Source: an uncultured Ectothiorhodospiraceae bacterium
GTDB lineage: Bacteria > Pseudomonadota > Gammaproteobacteria > S012-40
DNA length: 42,871 nt
Direction: 5' to 3'
Assembly: GCA_945787125.1 (NCBI GenBank)
Contig: CALZHW010000007.1
Location: 4,172 to 47,042 of the forward strand
The notes beneath the pieces are model-generated. The model was not told the origin of the DNA. It worked only from the letters and a program-made list of their open reading frames with translations, and searched no databases. The translations under genes and the position numbers were made by a program. Below, one piece after another: positions 6,390-14,195 of this stretch. The first letter of the stretch is position 1. Each line of letters opens with the position of its first letter.

Positions 6390-6899
6390 ATGAAGATAAT
6401 CAATAGACAGCGTTTAATTTATTTTACTGCGACATTATTATTACTGGTAGCCGCTTTTCTTTCACCGTTAAATTCATCGGAAGTATCTTTTAATGCACGT
6501 ATGTCTCTCGTAGAGCCGGTACTTGTTGTACAAGGACAAGGACTAAATTTTCCCGAATTACAACCTGGAAAGTCTGCAGTAGTTACAATTTCCTCCGACA
6601 ATAAGCGCAAAGCAGCAATGGTTACTGCTATTGGCCACGAAGAAACCTTGGTTACAGCGGCAGTCGTTGAAAACAGTATTTTCATTAGCACCGGCTCAGA
6701 TCTTACAAATAATGAAAAAATCACTGTTGAGTCATGGACTTATGGAGGTGATTTAGTTGATAGTGGAGGTTATGGAAAATCAACGTTAAATAAAAATGAA
6801 ATTAATAAGTTGCAAATTGGTGCATCAGCCTATGTTTTAGCGGAAAACGTAGGCGGTTTTTATACCGGAAAAGCGACATTAAGAGTTATCTATCAATAA
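6390..6899 (+). CDS. DUF4402-type pilin subunit 1
   Basis: This 169-residue protein has a signal peptide (hydrophobic residues about 10-28). The mature part is beta-rich with LNFPELQPGKSAVVTI, VESWTYGGDLVDSGGYGKS and IGASAYVLAENVGG. These motifs are shared with the proteins at 7554-8054 and 8168-8638. The C-terminus GFYTGKATLRVIYQ has Gly at position 14 from the end and a penultimate Tyr. That is the classical chaperone-usher subunit signature (seen in FimA and PapA), used for chaperone capture. No cysteine is present. It is probably a minor pilin, or the basal or tip member of the locus. It is separated from the next subunit by 654 bases containing repeat elements, so it may be transcribed alone. 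Confidence 0.7.
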   Translation: MKIINRQRLIYFTATLLLLVAAFLSPLNSSEVSFNARMSLVEPVLVVQGQGLNFPELQPGKSAVVTISSDNKRKAAMVTAIGHEETLVTAAVVENSIFISTGSDLTNNEKITVESWTYGGDLVDSGGYGKSTLNKNEINKLQIGASAYVLAENVGGFYTGKATLRVIYQ

Positions 6900-6920
6900 C
6901 TTTCAGCATTCTGCCTTACT

Positions 6921-6988
6921 TAAAATAATCGAAAATACTGCGCTTGTGACTTACCCTCGCTACGCTTCTCAGTCTCGGACAGGCTCCT
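6921..6988 (+). repeat. Repeat family R3, half copy
   Basis: The stretch matches the right half of the long palindromic element at 41415-41575. Shared landmarks are ATCGAAAA, CTTGTGA, CCCTCGC and the end block TCTCGGACAGGCTCCT. Only one arm is present, so unlike the full copy it cannot fold on itself. The 6900-7553 spacer thus holds this element, an R1 copy, and about 260 bases of AT-rich leader before the next pilin gene. No riboswitch consensus was recognised in that leader. Confidence 0.65.
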
Positions 6989-7115
6989 AATCAATTATAT
7001 TAATATCATTCTACATACCGTTTAACTGTTGATTATAGTGTAAACCTCATGCCAGATTAGTTTGTTAGTATTGATTGCTCACTCACAATCGAAGTGAGAT
7101 GCACGCCAGAATGCT

Positions 7116-7290
7116 GTCTTCCACCTTCCTAAGTGCCACCTTCCAGCACCCGTATCGGCAAAACTTTACCGAGAAGCACTGTGAATACGCTCCTATAAGC
7201 TTAACGGTAGCATCCTCGTGGCACACGAGGGAATACTCTCGATAAGGTCTCGCCACTACAAGCACTGACTACGGAAAAATATTTGAACGT
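7116..7290 (+). repeat. Repeat family R1, copy B
   Basis: The sequence aligns with copies at 1-172 and, inverted, 30921-31081. Landmarks are CTTCCACCTTCC, CCTTCCAGCACCCGTA, TTACCGAGA, GTGAATAC, ACTCTCGA, GCCACTAC and GCACTGACTACGG. The central palindrome differs from the other copies: it reads CTCGTG-GCA-CACGAG, a different but again self-complementary sequence. This suggests the hairpin is conserved more than its bases. Confidence 0.7.
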
Positions 7291-7553
7291 CGAAACCTAA
7301 GTGGTAAAAACTAACTTAGACGCTTATTTGTGATAAGCAAAATAGTAGATATGAGTTGTCAATTTCCAAAAAAAATAAAACTGAATTTTATAACTGTGAT
7401 GCAGTTCCTTGTTTACGATAGGCGCATTGATTTTTTGTGAATGGCCTCTCAAAAATAGCCAATGGTGGACGTAAATAATCTCGTCAGTTTGATCTAACAA
7501 CAGTTACTTTAAACGCGTTAAATCATCTTTATCTAAAAAAGGGTTTAAATATT

Positions 7554-8054
7554 ATGAAATTAAAAGCACTCTCAACTAAACTATTTATTACTTCTATTGC
7601 AACATTTGGTCTGGTTAACTCGGTATTAGCTGCCGATGAAGTCTTTGAATCGAGTCTGATATTAACTGTGCCGCTTTCGATAGTTGAGACTAGCCCCTTA
7701 ACATTTCCAGCCACTGTTGCAGGAGCGGATGCCTCCGTTGTGGTTGCTGCTGCTGATGCTGGTGCTGCCGTATTTGAGGTGCATGGTGCGGCTAACGCGC
7801 CATTTACCGCTACCATTACGGAAGCCTCTATTAATATGCTAACAGGCGATGGTGTTGGCACTACTAAGCAAATCCCTGTTGCTAGCTGGGTTTTTGGTGG
7901 TGACTTAACGGATGGCGGGGGCTCAGGTACTGCAACACTTCCTGCCGGTGGATCATTGACTGACGCGCGTGTGGGTGCAACGGCAACGGTAGCAGCGGAA
8001 GATATTGCTGGTACATATGCTGCCGATGCAACGTTCCAAGTGGTTTACCAGTAA
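7554..8054 (+). CDS. DUF4402-type pilin subunit 2, probable major pilin
   Basis: The 166-residue protein has a signal peptide ending LVNSVLA at about residue 26. The mature chain is very rich in Ala, Val, Gly and Thr (for example VVVAAADAGAAVF), as in major pilins. Family motifs are LTFPATVAGADASV, VASWVFGGDLTDGGGSG and VGATATVAAEDIAG. The C-terminus GTYAADATFQVVYQ closely resembles that of FimA-type pilins, with Gly at -14 and a penultimate Tyr. There is no cysteine, unlike most classical pilins. A hairpin downstream (8079-8112) may end part of the transcripts and so favour this gene over those that follow. The composition and own leader make it my candidate for the rod subunit. Confidence 0.7.
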   Translation: MKLKALSTKLFITSIATFGLVNSVLAADEVFESSLILTVPLSIVETSPLTFPATVAGADASVVVAAADAGAAVFEVHGAANAPFTATITEASINMLTGDGVGTTKQIPVASWVFGGDLTDGGGSGTATLPAGGSLTDARVGATATVAAEDIAGTYAADATFQVVYQ

Positions 8055-8078
8055 ACAATCAATATATTACACAAAATC

Positions 8079-8114
8079 AACAGCAATGGGCAGTTTTTCT
8101 GTTCGTTGCTGTTT
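8079..8114 (+). terminator. Possible attenuating hairpin after the major pilin gene
   Basis: AACAGCAA (8079-8086) pairs with TTGCTGTT (8105-8112), followed by TT. The 18-base loop contains a smaller CAG/CTG pair. The stem is eight perfect pairs but the T run is short, so partial termination is more likely than complete. It could set a high pilin to chaperone ratio. Confidence 0.35.
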
Positions 8115-8167
8115 TCATTATAGCAAGTTCTGTCATTTAGAATATTATACTCATTGGATAAGCGAGT

Positions 8168-8638
8168 ATGGATCAACGAAAAACTCTCCTGATCATTTTA
8201 TTGCTGTTTTTACCTGGTTACAGCTTTGCTGGCAAAAAACCACCTAAAAATATTGCACCTATTGACATAACCGAGTTGCACAATCTTTCTTTTCCCGTTC
8301 AAGTTAGCGGTATCAGTATCAATGTCATTATTTCTGCCAGTGACGGCAATGCTGCCGTATTTAATCTCACAGGTGAACCGAATGCTGCGGTGCAGGTATC
8401 ATTCGTGCAAAATAACTTTAAAATTCTCAATACGACGACCGGCGGTAATAGCCCAAACGAAAAAATTCCAGTCAATAGCTGGACATTTGGTGGTTCTGTC
8501 AACAGCAGCGGTGTTGGTGTTCTTGATGCGAATGGTAATCTAAACAATGTCCGCGTCGGGGCAACAGCGGTGGTTGATAGTGTTGATTTGGGAGGTGTTT
8601 ATCTGAATTCGGGCACCTTACGGGTAGTTTATCAATAA
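8168..8638 (+). CDS. DUF4402-type pilin subunit 3
   Basis: The 156-residue protein has a short signal peptide (MDQRKTLLIILLLFLPGYSFAG; cleavage near residue 21). The mature part shares NLSFPVQVSGISINV, VNSWTFGGSVNSSGVG and VGATAVVDSVDLGG with the two preceding subunits. It ends GVYLNSGTLRVVYQ, again with Gly at -14 and penultimate Tyr. It has no cysteine. It lies 113 bases after the major pilin candidate and 117 bases before the chaperone gene, in the same direction. It is less Ala-rich than subunit 2, which fits a minor, adaptor or tip subunit. No two-domain adhesin is present in the locus. Confidence 0.7.
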   Translation: MDQRKTLLIILLLFLPGYSFAGKKPPKNIAPIDITELHNLSFPVQVSGISINVIISASDGNAAVFNLTGEPNAAVQVSFVQNNFKILNTTTGGNSPNEKIPVNSWTFGGSVNSSGVGVLDANGNLNNVRVGATAVVDSVDLGGVYLNSGTLRVVYQ

Positions 8639-8691: not shown

Positions 8692-8731
8692 TTAAATAGT
8701 TAAATAGTTAAATAGTTAAATAGTTAAATAG
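8692..8731 (+). repeat. (TTAAATAG)5 tandem repeat upstream of the pilus chaperone
   Basis: Five exact, uninterrupted copies of the 8-base unit TTAAATAG occupy 8692-8731, ending 24 bases before the GTG start of the chaperone gene. Exact short tandem repeats change copy number by slipped-strand mispairing. Here such changes would alter the leader or promoter spacing rather than the reading frame of the gene. Confidence 0.9.
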
Positions 8732-8755
8732 CTTAATCATATGTGAGGAATCAAT

Positions 8756-9577
8756 GTGAAAAGAATATCTTTAAGGAAAGTGCACTGCAGTGCTATTACA
8801 CTGTTAAATTGTTTGTTGCTACTGGTGTTTTCCACCAGTGTTTTTGCTAAAAACAGTTTTTTAATCGCACCTGGACGAATTGATTTTGATTTGTCCAAGC
8901 CCAATACACAATCATTTATTCTAACGAACAATGGTGATGGCACTATACGACTGAAAATTGAGCCCACTTATTTTGCAATCGATGATAAGGCGCTATCTGC
9001 AGGCATCCCACTAACGCCAGACGCAAAGGTTAATGACGATCTGCGTCCCTATATGCGTATTAGTCCCCGTGTGCTGTCATTAAAGCCCGGGCAACGGCGT
9101 GATATTAGATTGTCAGTGAGGCCGAAACCGGGAATGCCAGACGGTGATTATCGGGCCCATTTACTGGTTAAAATGATGGAGGTCGCGCAAACATTTACGA
9201 CGCAGCAGGAATCAAAAGATAACGATGCCTTGGGAATGAAGGTTGATATCAAACTGCAAACTGCTGCCGCCGTATATGGACACCATGGCAATCGACAAGC
9301 TGAGTTAAGTATGAAGTGTTCGAAAAGCGAAAAGGGTGAGTTAATTATTGATGTCACTAATCCATCTATTTGGCGTTTCGAAGGTGCGTTAAAAGTATTT
9401 TTCGCTACAGCTGATGTCTCATCTGAACCTTTGTATACGAAATTTTTTAATAGCATCAGAGAGAGTCAGCTAACGTTAAAAACTGACTGGAAGGTACCGT
9501 CTGAAAGTGTCAAGCTGCATTGGATAGACAATTTCGATGGCGCTGTCAGCGGACAAGCTAGTTGTCAATTTAATTAA
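8756..9577 (+). CDS. PapD-like periplasmic fimbrial chaperone
   Basis: The 273-residue protein starts at GTG with a TGAGGA ribosome-binding site. The signal peptide ends near VFA (about residue 31). The N-terminal Ig-like domain shows FLIAPGRIDFDL (the Arg corresponds to the conserved subunit-anchoring Arg of the family), a TNNGDGTIRLKIEP strand, RPYMRISPRVLSLKPGQ, and RPKPGMPDGDYRAHLLVKM. The last motif is typical of alternative and archaic pilus chaperones. The second domain is more divergent and ends in VSGQASCQFN, with two Cys in the C-terminal half. It would bind DUF4402 subunits in the periplasm and deliver them to the usher encoded next. The gene ends 15 bases before the following ORF. 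Confidence 0.75.
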   Translation: MKRISLRKVHCSAITLLNCLLLLVFSTSVFAKNSFLIAPGRIDFDLSKPNTQSFILTNNGDGTIRLKIEPTYFAIDDKALSAGIPLTPDAKVNDDLRPYMRISPRVLSLKPGQRRDIRLSVRPKPGMPDGDYRAHLLVKMMEVAQTFTTQQESKDNDALGMKVDIKLQTAAAVYGHHGNRQAELSMKCSKSEKGELIIDVTNPSIWRFEGALKVFFATADVSSEPLYTKFFNSIRESQLTLKTDWKVPSESVKLHWIDNFDGAVSGQASCQFN

Positions 9578-9592
9578 TATTTCGTTGTTTCA

Positions 9593-9922
9593 ATGAAAAA
9601 GGCTAGATGTTATATCACGAGATATCTTTGCCTTTTTTTCTGTCTGTTGAGCTCTATTTCCGCAGAAAGTTCTCTAAAATATGATGGGACATCAGATCAA
9701 GCGCCAGAAATGGCGACGACTGATGTTTCTTCTATAAATGCTGAAAATAAAAATATCGGATACAGCCAGTATCTTCGAAAAACTATAACGGAAAAATTTT
9801 TCTCATTGATGGATGAAACTTATTTTTCGCCTAACCCAAATACGCAATCCGTAAAAAAAAAGAGGATGAAGGCTCACGGGAGAATAATAGGCTCCTTAAC
9901 GTTAGAAATAGCTCTCAAATAA
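9593..9922 (+). CDS. N-terminal part of the usher-like gene (signal peptide), ends by frameshift
   Basis: The 109-codon ORF starts 15 bases after the chaperone stop. It supplies a signal peptide (MKKARCYITRYLCLFFCLL, cleavage near residue 24) and then low-complexity polar sequence. The usher-like ORF downstream lacks both an ATG and a signal peptide and lies in the -1 frame, open from 9835. The two frames overlap over 9835-9922, with an A9 run at 9853-9861 inside the overlap. A -1 shift there joins residue 90 of this ORF to the downstream frame and gives one continuous protein of about 964 residues. I therefore read it as the first part of the usher gene. As it stands, the ORF ends 61 bases beyond the A run, with a tail that has no recognisable features. 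Confidence 0.6.
   Translation: MKKARCYITRYLCLFFCLLSSISAESSLKYDGTSDQAPEMATTDVSSINAENKNIGYSQYLRKTITEKFFSLMDETYFSPNPNTQSVKKKRMKAHGRIIGSLTLEIALK
9853..9862 (+). other. A9-G slippery run, candidate -1 frameshift or phase-variation site
   Basis: Nine A residues (9853-9861) followed by G contain the heptamer A AAA AAG in the zero frame of the upstream ORF. This is the same sequence used in E. coli dnaX. A -1 shift on it restores the frame of the usher gene. No upstream Shine-Dalgarno-like stimulator and only a weak downstream stem (GGAG/CTCC near 9879-9896) are visible. RNA-polymerase slippage, DNA slippage or a sequencing error are therefore equally possible. Confidence 0.6.
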
Positions 9923-9984: not shown

Positions 9985-12486
9985 TTGCCAGAAATCACTT
10001 CGTCAGTTTCGAAATCAAACTCGTTGCCAGATACTCCCGCAGACTTTACCAGTGTCCCCTCCTTAAAAATTGATGACGTTGAGTCAGAGCTTTATGAGGC
10101 TTTTATTAGCTTGCGAATTAGCGGCGCGCGAGGCTCTTCATTTTATCGAATAATGGTGGATGAAGAGGAAACGCCTTATCTGGATGTAAGTGATATTTTA
10201 AATAACTGGCTTGATATCACAACCGAGTGTCAAAATGTGCGACAGTATTGCCAAGGCATTTTACAGCCAGGAAGTAAGCTTGTTTGGATTGATGCTCAAG
10301 CAAGGCAAATGGGGAAAGTGGGTGGGGACGTTATAACCTTGCCTGTAGGCGTAATAAAAATCTATGAGGATAAATTATGGTTGCGCTATGATATTTGGCC
10401 AGCCTGGTTGCCCATTTCAAGTAATTGGACTTTACAAACCTACGCATTAAGTTTGCTCCCGGCCTTTCCGTTGCGGGGTGAATTAAAAGGCATACGAGAC
10501 AAAGCAAGGTCCATGCAAATGGCAATGCAAGAGAAAGGTCAACAATTTACTACGTTAGCCGTCAAAACACCACAAGAGCCGCTACGTTTCGAAGCAAGAT
10601 ATCGAATTAATGCAAACTATTCTGCTGATGCAGGTAAAAATATAGCGTTAAACTATGATGTTAATACTGACATCTTAGAAGGTAGTTTTTTACTTAGCGG
10701 GTTTGCTAAAGATAAATCAGATCCATTAGTGGGTTTTAACTATTGGCAATATCGACAAGTGGCCAGGTCGGCTTATCATTTGCTGGAGGTGGGGCAAAGC
10801 AATTTTACTTCATATGGCTTGCTGCCCTCGTTTAGTAGTGAGCAAGCAGTTTATATTGAAAAAAATGCATTGAGTCCTAGTGCAGGCCCATTTGAGTGGT
10901 TTGGACTGACTCGGCCAGGCAGTGAAGTTGATGTTTATCGAAATGGGTTTTTAGTGAAAACCGTGGCGGTCGATGCTAGTGGTGAGTTCAAAATTGACCA
11001 AATGCAGGTTTCTAGTGGTGATAGAATTGTCATTCGATATTATTTCCCCGATGGCTCTGAGTCACAAGAACTCATACGTATTGCGCCTGACTCAACCTTG
11101 ATGAAACAGGGTGAGTTTGATACCAGCGTGTATATAGGTAACATTAATGATGCCTTATTCGCATACGGTAAATTGCGCTATGGTGTTTCGCCAAAACTAT
11201 CTGTGGGTCTGCACGTTATGTCTTTACCTGTTGAAGAGCAACAAGAAGAGCAACAAGTATTAGGCAATATGCTAGATGTCAGTTGGCGTGTATTCCCAGG
11301 TTTGCATACAAGTCTTGAGCTGCTGACAGGCGCTAACGCGCTGGACTTAAGGTTGCATAGTATTTATACAGGGTTCATGAATCAAACCTGGCAGTTAGAG
11401 TTTGAACGCTACGCAAAAAATAGTATTTTGCGTAGCGTCAAAAATCTTAATCATAATGACTATGAGAGATTTAAAATTCGACATAGCATGCGCTTTAATC
11501 GTTGGAATTGGCAGCTTCTATTTGACTATAAGAATGCAGAGCAGCTGTTAGGATTTGATATTGATTACCGACTAAACCGCAAAGTCTCAATTTTTACAGA
11601 TACAATTTATACACACCTACCTGCAGGAAACAATTCGGTAGAAAGCGCTCTGGGAGCTAATTATAGTATTTCCTCTGAGAGTCGTCTGGAAGTAAAGTAT
11701 GCTTTTTCAAGCGTCAATGATGATAGCCTTTTTTTAAATTATCGTGCTAGCGCGAAACGATTCAAAAACGTTAGCTATGGACTGACTGCAACATTGTGGC
11801 GTGATAAATATAGCGCTTCAACATATTTAAATTGGTATGCGACAAAAAAGCTTATATTGGCTCTTAGATTTAGCCAGACGCAAGCAATGATTGAATTAAC
11901 TTGGAGTGATGTGCTGGCAAGTCATCCTGGACCCCGCAATTACGAAGATTTTGGTGGCGGAACATTATATGGCAATGTCATTCAGCCGCCATCGGCCGGC
12001 GAAACCAAAAGTATTCCCTTGGTCGGTGTGACCGTTAATGCGGGTACTAAAAAAACTGTCACGGATGAGATGGGAAGTTATCAAGTCAGTGGGATTCCTC
12101 CGTATCAACGTACCTACATATCGATTGGTGAAAACTCATTGGATGCGAGTATGGCGACCAGTGATTCCGTTTATCCAGTGCAGTTTCGACCTGGGACAAG
12201 AATGCAATACAACCCATTGCTTATTTGGACTGCCGGTGTTGATGGGGTGATTTATCGCGATAGTCCTATTCCTAGTCACGCAATCCTAACGCTGAAAAAA
12301 CACGGCTCCCAGAAAAGTTTTGAGCCAATCAAGATTGAAGAAGACGGATTTTTCTTGATTGAGGGTTTAACGCCAGGAACGTATGAGCTTAGTTTAACGA
12401 ATGTCGATGATCCGCCATCGAATTTAATTTTTGAATTGCCTAGTCAAATGGACTGGTTAAGTGGTCTTGAATGGAACTGGCGCTAA
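9985..12486 (+). CDS. Usher-like outer-membrane pilus assembly protein (main part)
   Basis: The frame is open from 9835 and encodes the bulk of a large outer-membrane protein. TTG 9985 is the first conventional start codon, giving 833 residues, but no signal peptide follows, so the true N-terminus is probably in the preceding ORF. Seen in order: an N-terminal region with two Cys (TECQNVRQYC); an LYRNG-like segment RPGSEVDVYRNGFLVKTVAV with VSSGDRIVIRYYFPDGS, typical of usher E-set/plug domains; a long stretch of alternating aromatic strands (about 380-640) consistent with a beta-barrel; and two C-terminal carboxypeptidase-regulatory or SpaA-like beta-sandwiches (VGVTVNAGTKKTVTDEMGSY; GLTPGTYELSL). 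The organisation recalls the CS1/TcfC usher type more than FimD. It would secrete and assemble the DUF4402 subunits. Class assignment is tentative. Confidence 0.65.
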   Translation: MPEITSSVSKSNSLPDTPADFTSVPSLKIDDVESELYEAFISLRISGARGSSFYRIMVDEEETPYLDVSDILNNWLDITTECQNVRQYCQGILQPGSKLVWIDAQARQMGKVGGDVITLPVGVIKIYEDKLWLRYDIWPAWLPISSNWTLQTYALSLLPAFPLRGELKGIRDKARSMQMAMQEKGQQFTTLAVKTPQEPLRFEARYRINANYSADAGKNIALNYDVNTDILEGSFLLSGFAKDKSDPLVGFNYWQYRQVARSAYHLLEVGQSNFTSYGLLPSFSSEQAVYIEKNALSPSAGPFEWFGLTRPGSEVDVYRNGFLVKTVAVDASGEFKIDQMQVSSGDRIVIRYYFPDGSESQELIRIAPDSTLMKQGEFDTSVYIGNINDALFAYGKLRYGVSPKLSVGLHVMSLPVEEQQEEQQVLGNMLDVSWRVFPGLHTSLELLTGANALDLRLHSIYTGFMNQTWQLEFERYAKNSILRSVKNLNHNDYERFKIRHSMRFNRWNWQLLFDYKNAEQLLGFDIDYRLNRKVSIFTDTIYTHLPAGNNSVESALGANYSISSESRLEVKYAFSSVNDDSLFLNYRASAKRFKNVSYGLTATLWRDKYSASTYLNWYATKKLILALRFSQTQAMIELTWSDVLASHPGPRNYEDFGGGTLYGNVIQPPSAGETKSIPLVGVTVNAGTKKTVTDEMGSYQVSGIPPYQRTYISIGENSLDASMATSDSVYPVQFRPGTRMQYNPLLIWTAGVDGVIYRDSPIPSHAILTLKKHGSQKSFEPIKIEEDGFFLIEGLTPGTYELSLTNVDDPPSNLIFELPSQMDWLSGLEWNWR

Positions 12487-12569: not shown

Positions 12570-14195
12570 TTATTCAGGGGTGTCAGCAGACCAGCTATTT
12601 ATCGTATTGACTGTTACTCTTCGGTTTTGATCGACAACAAACTCTAAAACATGCCAGGTATTGTTAGCTTCTTCACCTTCAGGTGGTGTGAATATGGAAA
12701 TGTTGCCGTTGAAATTAAGTTCTACCCGCGCGTCAGTACCAGTCATTCGTGGGAATATCACATCCTCATCTTTAAAGAAATTATGTACAGAATATTGATA
12801 TTTACCGACTCCAGGGAAGCTGAATATGGTGATAACTTCCGGGCCAAAACTCACTAAGTCATCAACATCTAGCTTGGCGAAGGGCGGGCTTGTAAGGCTT
12901 CCTTTTTCCTCATAATAGACGTGATAGTTTGCGCCGACCAAGTGGGAGTCCAGGTCATTTGGTGTCAGACCCCAGGTGAGTTTAAGGGAGACGGATACGT
13001 CAATGTTACGGCCTGTGATCGTGCTCAGGGTTAGGCAGCTTGGCAATGCTTTATCTGCTTTTCCTGTAGAAACCTTCAGTGTATTGGTATGGTTGTTTTC
13101 GGTCAAACCAAGGATAAATATAGATGTGTCGGGTTTGACCGGTAAGGAGAAGTTGCCGGCAGAGTCGGAGGTGGTCGTGGCTAAAGCAGAGTAGTCGTCG
13201 CCCTCTGCTCGAATATTTACCCCGCTAACAAGGGCCCCGTTGCTGTCTTCGACACAGCCACTGATTGCAATTGGTGCAAACAAGTCGGCAGCGTTCCATG
13301 TTGTAAAATGACTGACTGTGCCTTCGTAATAACTCTCTGTTCCTGCAGAAACAAGTTGTGCCGAGCCATCTTGTATCCATCGCCCTGTCGCTCTATCATC
13401 ATAATAAAGTGGGATGTTTGCTGGTGTGTTTGCTGCTCTATTTGCTACTGGAATGCGAATAGAGGCGGTGGCGCCGGGAATCAGGTCAAGCTTGTTTTTT
13501 TCGCTATCGTAAAAGGTGACAGCTAACGCGCCGAAACTTTCAATAGGTTTCAATAAGCCAGCTACGTCAGTGAGTGAGTCTCCGGGTAATAGATCTATAT
13601 CCCGTGTTGGGTCGATTGCGGTCATGTTAATTGTTATGTCTCCCACGGGCGCGCTGCCATTTTGTTGAGCCAATGAGTTGGCACTTAATACAACGCGTGC
13701 CGGCGAGTCAGTATCGGTAAAAGTCTGATCAGTACTTTCGTCAATACTTGAGTCAAAGGTTTCTGTAGTATCAATCGGCATCAAGCTAATTGATAAGTTC
13801 CGTTCTTTATTTTCCTCAGTAACTATGACAAGCTTTCGCTGTCCTACAAAATCATCGCCAGTAATTTCTGTTGGCACTGTTGAATTCAGCGGTACATCGC
13901 TAATAGAGTATCTTCCATCTGTGCCAGTAGTTGCAATTTTATCTCCGATACTTACGCTGATACCAGGAACAGGTTCGCCGGTTGTAAAATTTAGAACATT
14001 CCCACTAATGGTGCCGGTAGTAACATTGGGAATAGTTGGTTCAGATGGGATAATTAGGTCGGGTGTGTCATCAATATTTGTTATTGGATCTTTTTTATCG
14101 TCACCGTCGCTACTGCCTCCACCGCAGGCGCCAAGAGCAAGTGTCAATAAAATTATAAAAAAATAGTTGTTTTTAAGGTTAGCAATATTTGCCAT
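12570..14195 (-). CDS. Lipoprotein with carboxypeptidase-regulatory-like and YfaP/DUF2135-like domains
   Basis: The 541-residue protein has a lipoprotein signal peptide (LALGAC, lipidated Cys24) followed by a Gly/Ser/Asp-rich linker. A carboxypeptidase-regulatory-like beta-sandwich follows (about 60-130: GTISGNVLNFTTGEPVPGISV, in two parts, then TGTDGRYSISDVP). A second such repeat occurs near 310-380 (ISGCVEDSNGALVSGVNI; DSAGNFSLPV). The C-terminal part has LTWGLTPNDLDSHLVGANYH with HVYYEEKG, recalling YfaP/DUF2135 proteins. It probably sits on the outer or inner membrane, facing the periplasm or cell surface. A GGGGGA ribosome-binding site precedes the ATG. It converges on the pilus locus, and a link to pilus function is only suggested by position and by its usher-like C-terminal sandwich type. 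Confidence 0.65.
   Translation of the reverse strand: MANIANLKNNYFFIILLTLALGACGGGSSDGDDKKDPITNIDDTPDLIIPSEPTIPNVTTGTISGNVLNFTTGEPVPGISVSIGDKIATTGTDGRYSISDVPLNSTVPTEITGDDFVGQRKLVIVTEENKERNLSISLMPIDTTETFDSSIDESTDQTFTDTDSPARVVLSANSLAQQNGSAPVGDITINMTAIDPTRDIDLLPGDSLTDVAGLLKPIESFGALAVTFYDSEKNKLDLIPGATASIRIPVANRAANTPANIPLYYDDRATGRWIQDGSAQLVSAGTESYYEGTVSHFTTWNAADLFAPIAISGCVEDSNGALVSGVNIRAEGDDYSALATTTSDSAGNFSLPVKPDTSIFILGLTENNHTNTLKVSTGKADKALPSCLTLSTITGRNIDVSVSLKLTWGLTPNDLDSHLVGANYHVYYEEKGSLTSPPFAKLDVDDLVSFGPEVITIFSFPGVGKYQYSVHNFFKDEDVIFPRMTGTDARVELNFNGNISIFTPPEGEEANNTWHVLEFVVDQNRRVTVNTINSWSADTPE

Follow-up and report, generated by a model that had tools for sequence, protein, structure and literature searches.

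The question raised by this locus is whether three secreted DUF4402-like proteins, encoded within a stretch of 42,871 nucleotides from an uncultured Ectothiorhodospiraceae bacterium (the whole of which we call the window), are the pilins of a chaperone-usher pilus, as a sequence-only reading of this DNA had proposed from their C-terminal ends and their gene neighbourhood. We consider it very probable that the product of the cluster is a small chaperone-usher pilus with the DUF4402 proteins as its pilins. This view is built on what could be computed, that is, homology, gene linkage, a C-terminal motif, an incomplete fold, the pattern of donor segments and the kinship of the usher; strand exchange, the order of the subunits, surface location and adhesion are what we infer beyond it.

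Three DUF4402 proteins and their C-terminal signature

The pilin part of the cluster comprises the following features:

6390..6899, + strand: pilin1, a DUF4402-like secreted subunit (C-terminal motif codons 6855-6896)
codons 6480-6518, + strand: hydrophobic donor-like N-terminal segment of pilin1, EVSFNARMSLVEP
7554..8054, + strand: pilin2, the probable major DUF4402 subunit (C-terminal motif codons 8010-8051)
codons about 7632-7673, + strand: donor segment of pilin2, ADEVFESSLILTVP
8079..8113, + strand: 15-pair terminator-like hairpin directly 3' of pilin2, from a consensus scan
8168..8638, + strand: pilin3, a DUF4402 subunit and the probable tip (C-terminal motif codons 8594-8635)

As had been read from the sequence, the open reading frames of all three proteins end with Gly at position -14 and Tyr at position -2 (pilin1, GFYTGKATLRVIYQ; pilin2, GTYAADATFQVVYQ; pilin3, GVYLNSGTLRVVYQ), a form that is common to FimA, F, G, H and I of E. 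coli and missing from EcpA and EcpD; pilin2 and FimA (GAANADATFKVQYQ) are identical at 10 of the 14 positions. Against Pfam DUF4402 (PF14352), pilin2 and pilin3 score 26.0 and 26.7 bits, respectively, and thus above the cut-off of 25.2 bits, while pilin1 stays under it with 19.0 bits; by BLAST, however, pilin1 is a clear homologue of both (E 1e-16 to 1e-22).

For the motif test, the family profile was rebuilt minus the last 20 residues, members were collected, and the C-termini were read afterwards; the test set consisted of 120 family clusters at 50% identity, with 2577 other ORFs of the same loci as controls. Tyr is found at -1 or -2 in 95 of the 120 clusters (79%) vs 121 of the other ORFs (4.7%), and Gly lies exactly 12 residues before this Tyr in 66 clusters (55%) vs 10 control ORFs (0.4%), so that DUF4402 homologues at large do bear the signature, at a frequency far in excess of chance. 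Among the chaperones of the same loci (n=79), 3.8% exhibit Tyr at -1/-2 and none (0/79) the Gly-12-Tyr spacing. The strict form with both G-14 and Y-2 accounts for 51 of the 120 clusters, and for 66 if a second common form is included in which the protein terminates on Tyr (G-13, Y-1); an aromatic residue occupies -1/-2 in 83% of the 120 clusters. The missing cysteine pair to which the sequence-only reading had pointed is confirmed for the three pilins at hand, which contain no cysteine at all, but does not hold as a rule for the family, in which only 32/120 clusters are Cys-free.

The AF2 model of pilin2, calculated with a 99-row alignment (pLDDT 89.5), has its last strand at residues 161-165 of 166, with no strand beyond, and leaves the mature N-terminus unpaired. 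When compared with the PDB, its best matches are CfaB (the CFA/I major pilin), FimF from the FimD tip complex, and the pilin domain of PapG; further matches are CsuA/B, FimA, Caf1 and, weakly, DraD. Chaperone-usher pilins lead the list, although the matches are of marginal significance, with a best E of 1.5e-3 and TM of about 0.4-0.5. A complete Ig fold would have spoken against pilin function, and the model instead leaves the fold incomplete, in line with pilin2 being an Ig fold from which the G strand is absent. At the level of sequence, the DUF4402 profile has no significant match among PDB sequences (PapK, E 1.2), and neither has hhalign of the pilins against EcpA alone or FimA alone.

The consensus scan that yielded the hairpin at 8079..8113 found 7 terminator-like hairpins vs 5.8 expected; high output of pilin2 is possibly set at this hairpin. 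A promoter scan gave a result within chance level. In a close relative (L102:8236-8676), a short ORF located before the chaperone and outside the pilin profile matches ends with GRYLGKSKVMLVHY, and is possibly a remnant pilin that has retained the C-terminal signature.

Chaperone, usher and their linkage to DUF4402 genes

Downstream of the pilins lie the following features:

8692..8736, + strand: tandem repeat TTAAATAG x 5.5 with an 8-base unit, between pilin3 and the chaperone and 20 bases before the chaperone start
8756..9577, + strand: two-domain PapD-like periplasmic chaperone of non-classical type, with Pro104, and Arg133 aligned to EcpB Arg89
9985..12486, + strand: usher body, 833 aa from TTG, in a frame open from about 9835, with a C-terminal carboxypeptidase-regulatory-like domain

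The neighbouring PapD-like chaperone and usher, which had been recognized from the letters alone, are borne out by homology, and the kinship of the latter marks it as an outer-membrane usher; the two proteins returned no pilus family in Pfam and NCBIfam. The repeat at 8692..8736 is a candidate site of slippage or phase variation. Among the members of the chaperone family, 37/59 are matched by PapD_N, all 59 possess the superfamily proline (P104 in the window), and the domain-1 Arg (Arg133 in the window) is Arg in 49/59 relatives; in archaic and alternative chaperones, it is to this residue that the carboxylate of the subunit is anchored (PMC4654587). At the domain-2 columns 176, 202 and 231, which are possible counterparts of the carboxylate-anchoring Arg148/Tyr169 of EcpB, the family has mostly Arg/Tyr and the window His176, Asn202 and Phe231, a difference that speaks against the pilus reading. 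The alignment employed comprised pilin-chaperone read-throughs and lone chaperones; one mixing lone pilins with read-throughs was rejected because pilins were placed on the chaperone. In a fused pilin3-chaperone model with an overall pTM of 0.55, the chaperone part (pLDDT mostly about 90) matches CfaA first, followed by Caf1M, CsuC and FimC (E 4e-10 to 3e-9). The chaperone profile (alignment A2) also matches a WxL-interacting protein of Enterococcus faecium (PDB 9i25/9i1y; E 1e-6), which by sequence outscores every solved chaperone of chaperone-usher systems; deep kinship or similar work are possible reasons.

For the usher family, hhalign yields E 1.2e-17 over 570 columns with TcfC/EcpC ushers, E 1.5e-5 with EcpC alone (usher alignment A3), and E 0.04 with the single sequence of FimD. 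The window usher is matched neither by PF00577 nor by the Pfam TcfC domain, with which 1/35 and 2/35 relatives, respectively, are weakly matched. A quick likelihood tree places the DUF4402-linked ushers together (SH-aLRT 97) in a clade that is sister to that of the TcfC/EcpC ushers (99), with the ushers of the window and of loci L100, L102, L103 and L104 constituting a deep sub-clade (SH-aLRT 100). As judged from these sequence comparisons, the usher is akin to EcpC/TcfC ushers and appears to belong to a clade of its own with DUF4402-linked ushers of several phyla, a placement that is provisional owing to long branches. The label 'classical', which the sequence-only reading had given to the C-terminal signature, fits that signature and not the machinery: since chaperone and usher are both non-classical, the classical motif does not imply a classical system.

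Linkage was surveyed in 369 evenly drawn genomes of the class, which were searched separately with Pfam DUF4402 and the usher-family profile. Both DUF4402 (over cut-off) and an usher of this type (E < 1e-50) are found in 12 of these genomes, DUF4402 without such an usher in none, the usher alone in 2, and neither at these levels in 355. Chaperone and/or usher of one type are linked to at least one DUF4402 gene in all 12 class genomes and in all 10 further genomes of the phylum sample over cut-off; in each of the latter 10, a DUF4402 gene exists with both chaperone and usher in the 20 kb surrounding it. At the genome level, DUF4402 over cut-off is thus never apart from chaperone-usher genes in these samples (22/22 linked), and this linkage supports, together with the motif and the matches of the pilin2 model, the earlier proposal that DUF4402 is a chaperone-usher pilin family. 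One class genome (G139) has chaperone and pilins on one contig and the usher on another. When single loci are counted under wide sampling, chaperone and usher are not nearby in 19 of 40 DUF4402 loci; 17 of the 19, including those of Piscirickettsia, are in genomes with a linked cluster elsewhere, and 2 are below cut-off, the contig of one being 4 kb long. Orphan DUF4402 copies are many in some genomes, usually with a chaperone-usher locus elsewhere.

A scan of the genome contigs with the single usher sequence found no match, and a search of the named genomes with the usher alignment found 66 loci. The typical order, pilin(s)-chaperone-usher, is encountered in Gamma- and Alphaproteobacteria, Nitrospirota, Balneolota, Elusimicrobiota and others. 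Nearest to the cluster of the window are those of a Nitrospirota MAG (L100) and a Moraxellaceae MAG (L102), whose chaperones are 41-43% identical to the window's; L100 has three pilins, chaperone and usher, and then a fourth pilin. In Piscirickettsia (L103, L104), a related usher adjoins a tandem DUF4402 protein, which at L104:7647-8552 comprises two domains. Elsewhere in this genus (L039, L040, L042, L043, L045-L048), there are many orphan DUF4402 genes, with the chaperone unlinked and elsewhere in the genome; it is possible that scattered pilin genes supply one usher.

The genome of the window itself has two more such clusters, L168 (G000:C63) and L169 (G000:C72), with long usher ORFs and with pilins that the Pfam search missed; in L169, a second and more distant chaperone adjoins another ORF. 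In the window, a lipoprotein-like ORF of 541 aa (12570-14195, - strand) with two CarboxypepD_reg-like stretches is convergent with the usher, the end domain of which is similar. As a member of the system it was dropped owing to its opposite strand and convergent orientation.

Proposed assembly, the usher frame break and rival readings

We propose that the DUF4402 pilins would be Ig-like domains from which the final strand is missing. The chaperone (8756-9577) would hold, in the periplasm, the C-terminal strand of a subunit with its GxYx...VxY(x) signature and lend its own G1 strand into the subunit groove. The usher (9985-12486), which would be secreted via the signal peptide encoded at 9593, would then replace the chaperone strand, at the outer membrane, by the donor segment at the N-terminus of the following subunit. 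The major subunit would likely be pilin2, with pilin1 as another subunit that bears a donor segment, while pilin3, as the first subunit exported, would reside at the distal tip as a possible adhesin.

Donor length was defined as the residues from the predicted signal-peptide cleavage, for which a simple home-made rule was used, to the conserved LxFG motif. Its distribution is bimodal (about 22 residues vs about 7-9 residues), and the ~22-residue segments, which show alternating hydrophobics (e.g., DEVFESSLILTVP in pilin2), precede LxFG in at least one subunit of most family clusters. Exactly one short, donor-less pilin is present in 35 of the 50 clusters having at least two scored pilins, where 35 mixed clusters compare with a mean of 24 under label shuffling and a maximum of 34 in 5000 shuffles, the loci being phylogenetically non-independent. 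The upstream order long, short, chaperone occurs in 19 clusters, and the long/short pattern is also seen in L168, a second cluster of the window's own genome.

In pilin3, GKKPPKNIAP replaces the donor and the N-terminal segment is degenerate. With a donor length of 18 residues it is 'long' by the script's strict 17-residue rule, so that calling it donor-less rests on the character of this segment and on the counterpart in L100 (KNHWALAVTLIQGMSF, 13 residues). By these marks pilin3 is probably a single-domain, donor-less tip subunit, for which, devoid of a usable donor segment, only the distal tip position is possible. DraD/AfaD is likewise a single-domain tip subunit from which the donor strand is absent, and it has been argued that such a subunit must come first at the tip (PMC3112383); SafD is a capping minor pilin (PMC5700814). 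Donor-less DUF4402 pilins would work like these subunits, which belong to other (FGL) chaperone-usher systems, the likeness being one of function. The remark that no two-domain adhesin is present is accurate as far as it goes, but the adhesin is probably substituted by a single-domain donor-less subunit (35/50 clusters).

The usher gene is apparently interrupted at its 5' end, where two further features are relevant:

9593..9922, + strand: 109-aa ORF with signal peptide, in another frame; probable 5' end of the usher gene
9853..9861, + strand: A9 run, read gtA AAA AAA AAG, at which a one-base slip unites the signal-peptide ORF with the usher frame

No signal peptide is encoded in the usher frame when it is read from TTG 9985, its first start. 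The signal-peptide ORF and the usher body connect solely across A9, the only A run of at least 9 on the + strand of the window, where a -1 slip yields ...SVKKK-EDEGSR.... In the intact ushers of L100 and L102, the usher's own signal peptide leads almost directly into the same domain, and the ORF at 9593..9922 probably encodes the N-terminal part of the usher. The break may reflect an assembly error, phase variation, slippage or decay. The heptamer A AAA AAG, which is in frame within A9, belongs to a known class of slippery sites. Stimulated frameshifting as in dnaX gains no structural support, the fold downstream of A9 being no better than shuffles (z 0.32). With usher body and signal peptide in different frames, the cluster may be off or broken here.

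Hence, the cluster could be a genuine chaperone-usher system by descent and nevertheless a decaying or silent copy, in which the usher frameshift abolishes export. This reading, which is compatible with our explanation of the family and was scored separately, seems to us rather unlikely: the signal peptide (9593-9922) and the body of the usher (from 9985) indeed lie in separate frames with A9 as their sole join, and in the two other clusters of the genome the usher is a long ORF that includes a signal peptide, but the usher body is otherwise intact across its 833 residues, pilins and chaperone are intact as well, and A9 provides both a site of the slippery kind and a spot at which a one-base assembly error is possible.

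Two further readings concern the family as a whole. The DUF4402 proteins might be folded by the chaperone and exported by the usher merely as single subunits or as very short capped stacks, with no pilus being formed. While the minimal gene set and the many clusters with short donor-less subunits would accord with this, the ~22-residue donor-like segment that most clusters also encode, the occurrence of tandem DUF4402 proteins, and the alignment of the barrel, plug-side and C-terminal regions of the usher to polymerising ushers make it quite improbable. Alternatively, the C-terminal signature might be an ordinary terminal β-strand pattern and uninformative on chaperone binding, as the ends of β-sandwiches are generally known to have alternating hydrophobics and terminal aromatics. 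We regard this as hardly plausible in view of the frequency of the terminal aromatic across the family, of a Gly fixed 12 residues before Tyr as in the type 1 pilins of E. coli, and of a linkage to chaperone and usher that is complete at the genome level. A small pilus built from DUF4402 subunits is thus the reading that we retain.

Relation to known systems and significance

When compared with the E. coli common pilus (EcpA-E), the cluster shares (i) a homologous usher, (ii) the chaperone Pro and Arg of non-classical chaperones (PMC4654587), and (iii) the carboxypeptidase-regulatory-like end of the usher. It differs in that its usher is outside the TcfC clade and unmatched by Pfam TcfC, that its pilins lack detectable kinship with EcpA and, unlike EcpA, have G-14/Y-2, and that a large EcpD-like adhesin is absent. 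CFA/I class 5 fimbriae provide the top structural matches for both chaperone (CfaA) and pilin2 (CfaB); however, a two-domain CfaE-like adhesin is absent here, and sequence kinship is below any Pfam fimbrial family. With type 1 and P pili, the cluster has in common the form of the C-terminal signature and the incomplete Ig fold, but it possesses neither the cysteine pair nor a lectin-pilin adhesin, and its usher escapes PF00577 and aligns with FimD only at hhalign E 0.04. The archaic Csu pili, finally, are represented among the structural matches by CsuC and CsuA/B and have the chaperone Arg in common (PMC4654587), whereas their pilins are of another family and their CsuE-like two-domain tip has no equivalent here. 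In operation, the cluster would resemble the alternative and class 5 systems, its subunits having a C-terminus of classical appearance, and as now defined neither group includes it.

It is therefore tempting to speculate, although we hold this for a possibility rather than an expectation, that DUF4402 pili represent a separate chaperone-usher lineage beside the classical, archaic and alternative ones and across several phyla, in which the classical signature is combined with non-classical assembly proteins, a single-domain donor-less tip replaces the two-domain adhesin, and, in this bacterium, expression of the usher requires a one-base slip at A9 by frameshifting, transcriptional slippage or phase variation. 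A literature search, with most subscription journals outside its reach, found no paper naming DUF4402, PF14352 or IPR025514, and this branch of the chaperone-usher machinery, which is distinct and widespread, is apparently undescribed.

A function would thereby be assigned to a domain of unknown function that occurs across many Gram-negative bacteria. Because the Pfam usher models miss this lineage, surveys of pili now undercount it. The pairing of donor-bearing and donor-less subunits would, moreover, predict straight from sequence which gene encodes the fibre and which the tip. Finally, the classical Gly-14/Tyr-2 signature appears not to be bound to classical chaperones, which bears on the origin and the role of this signature.
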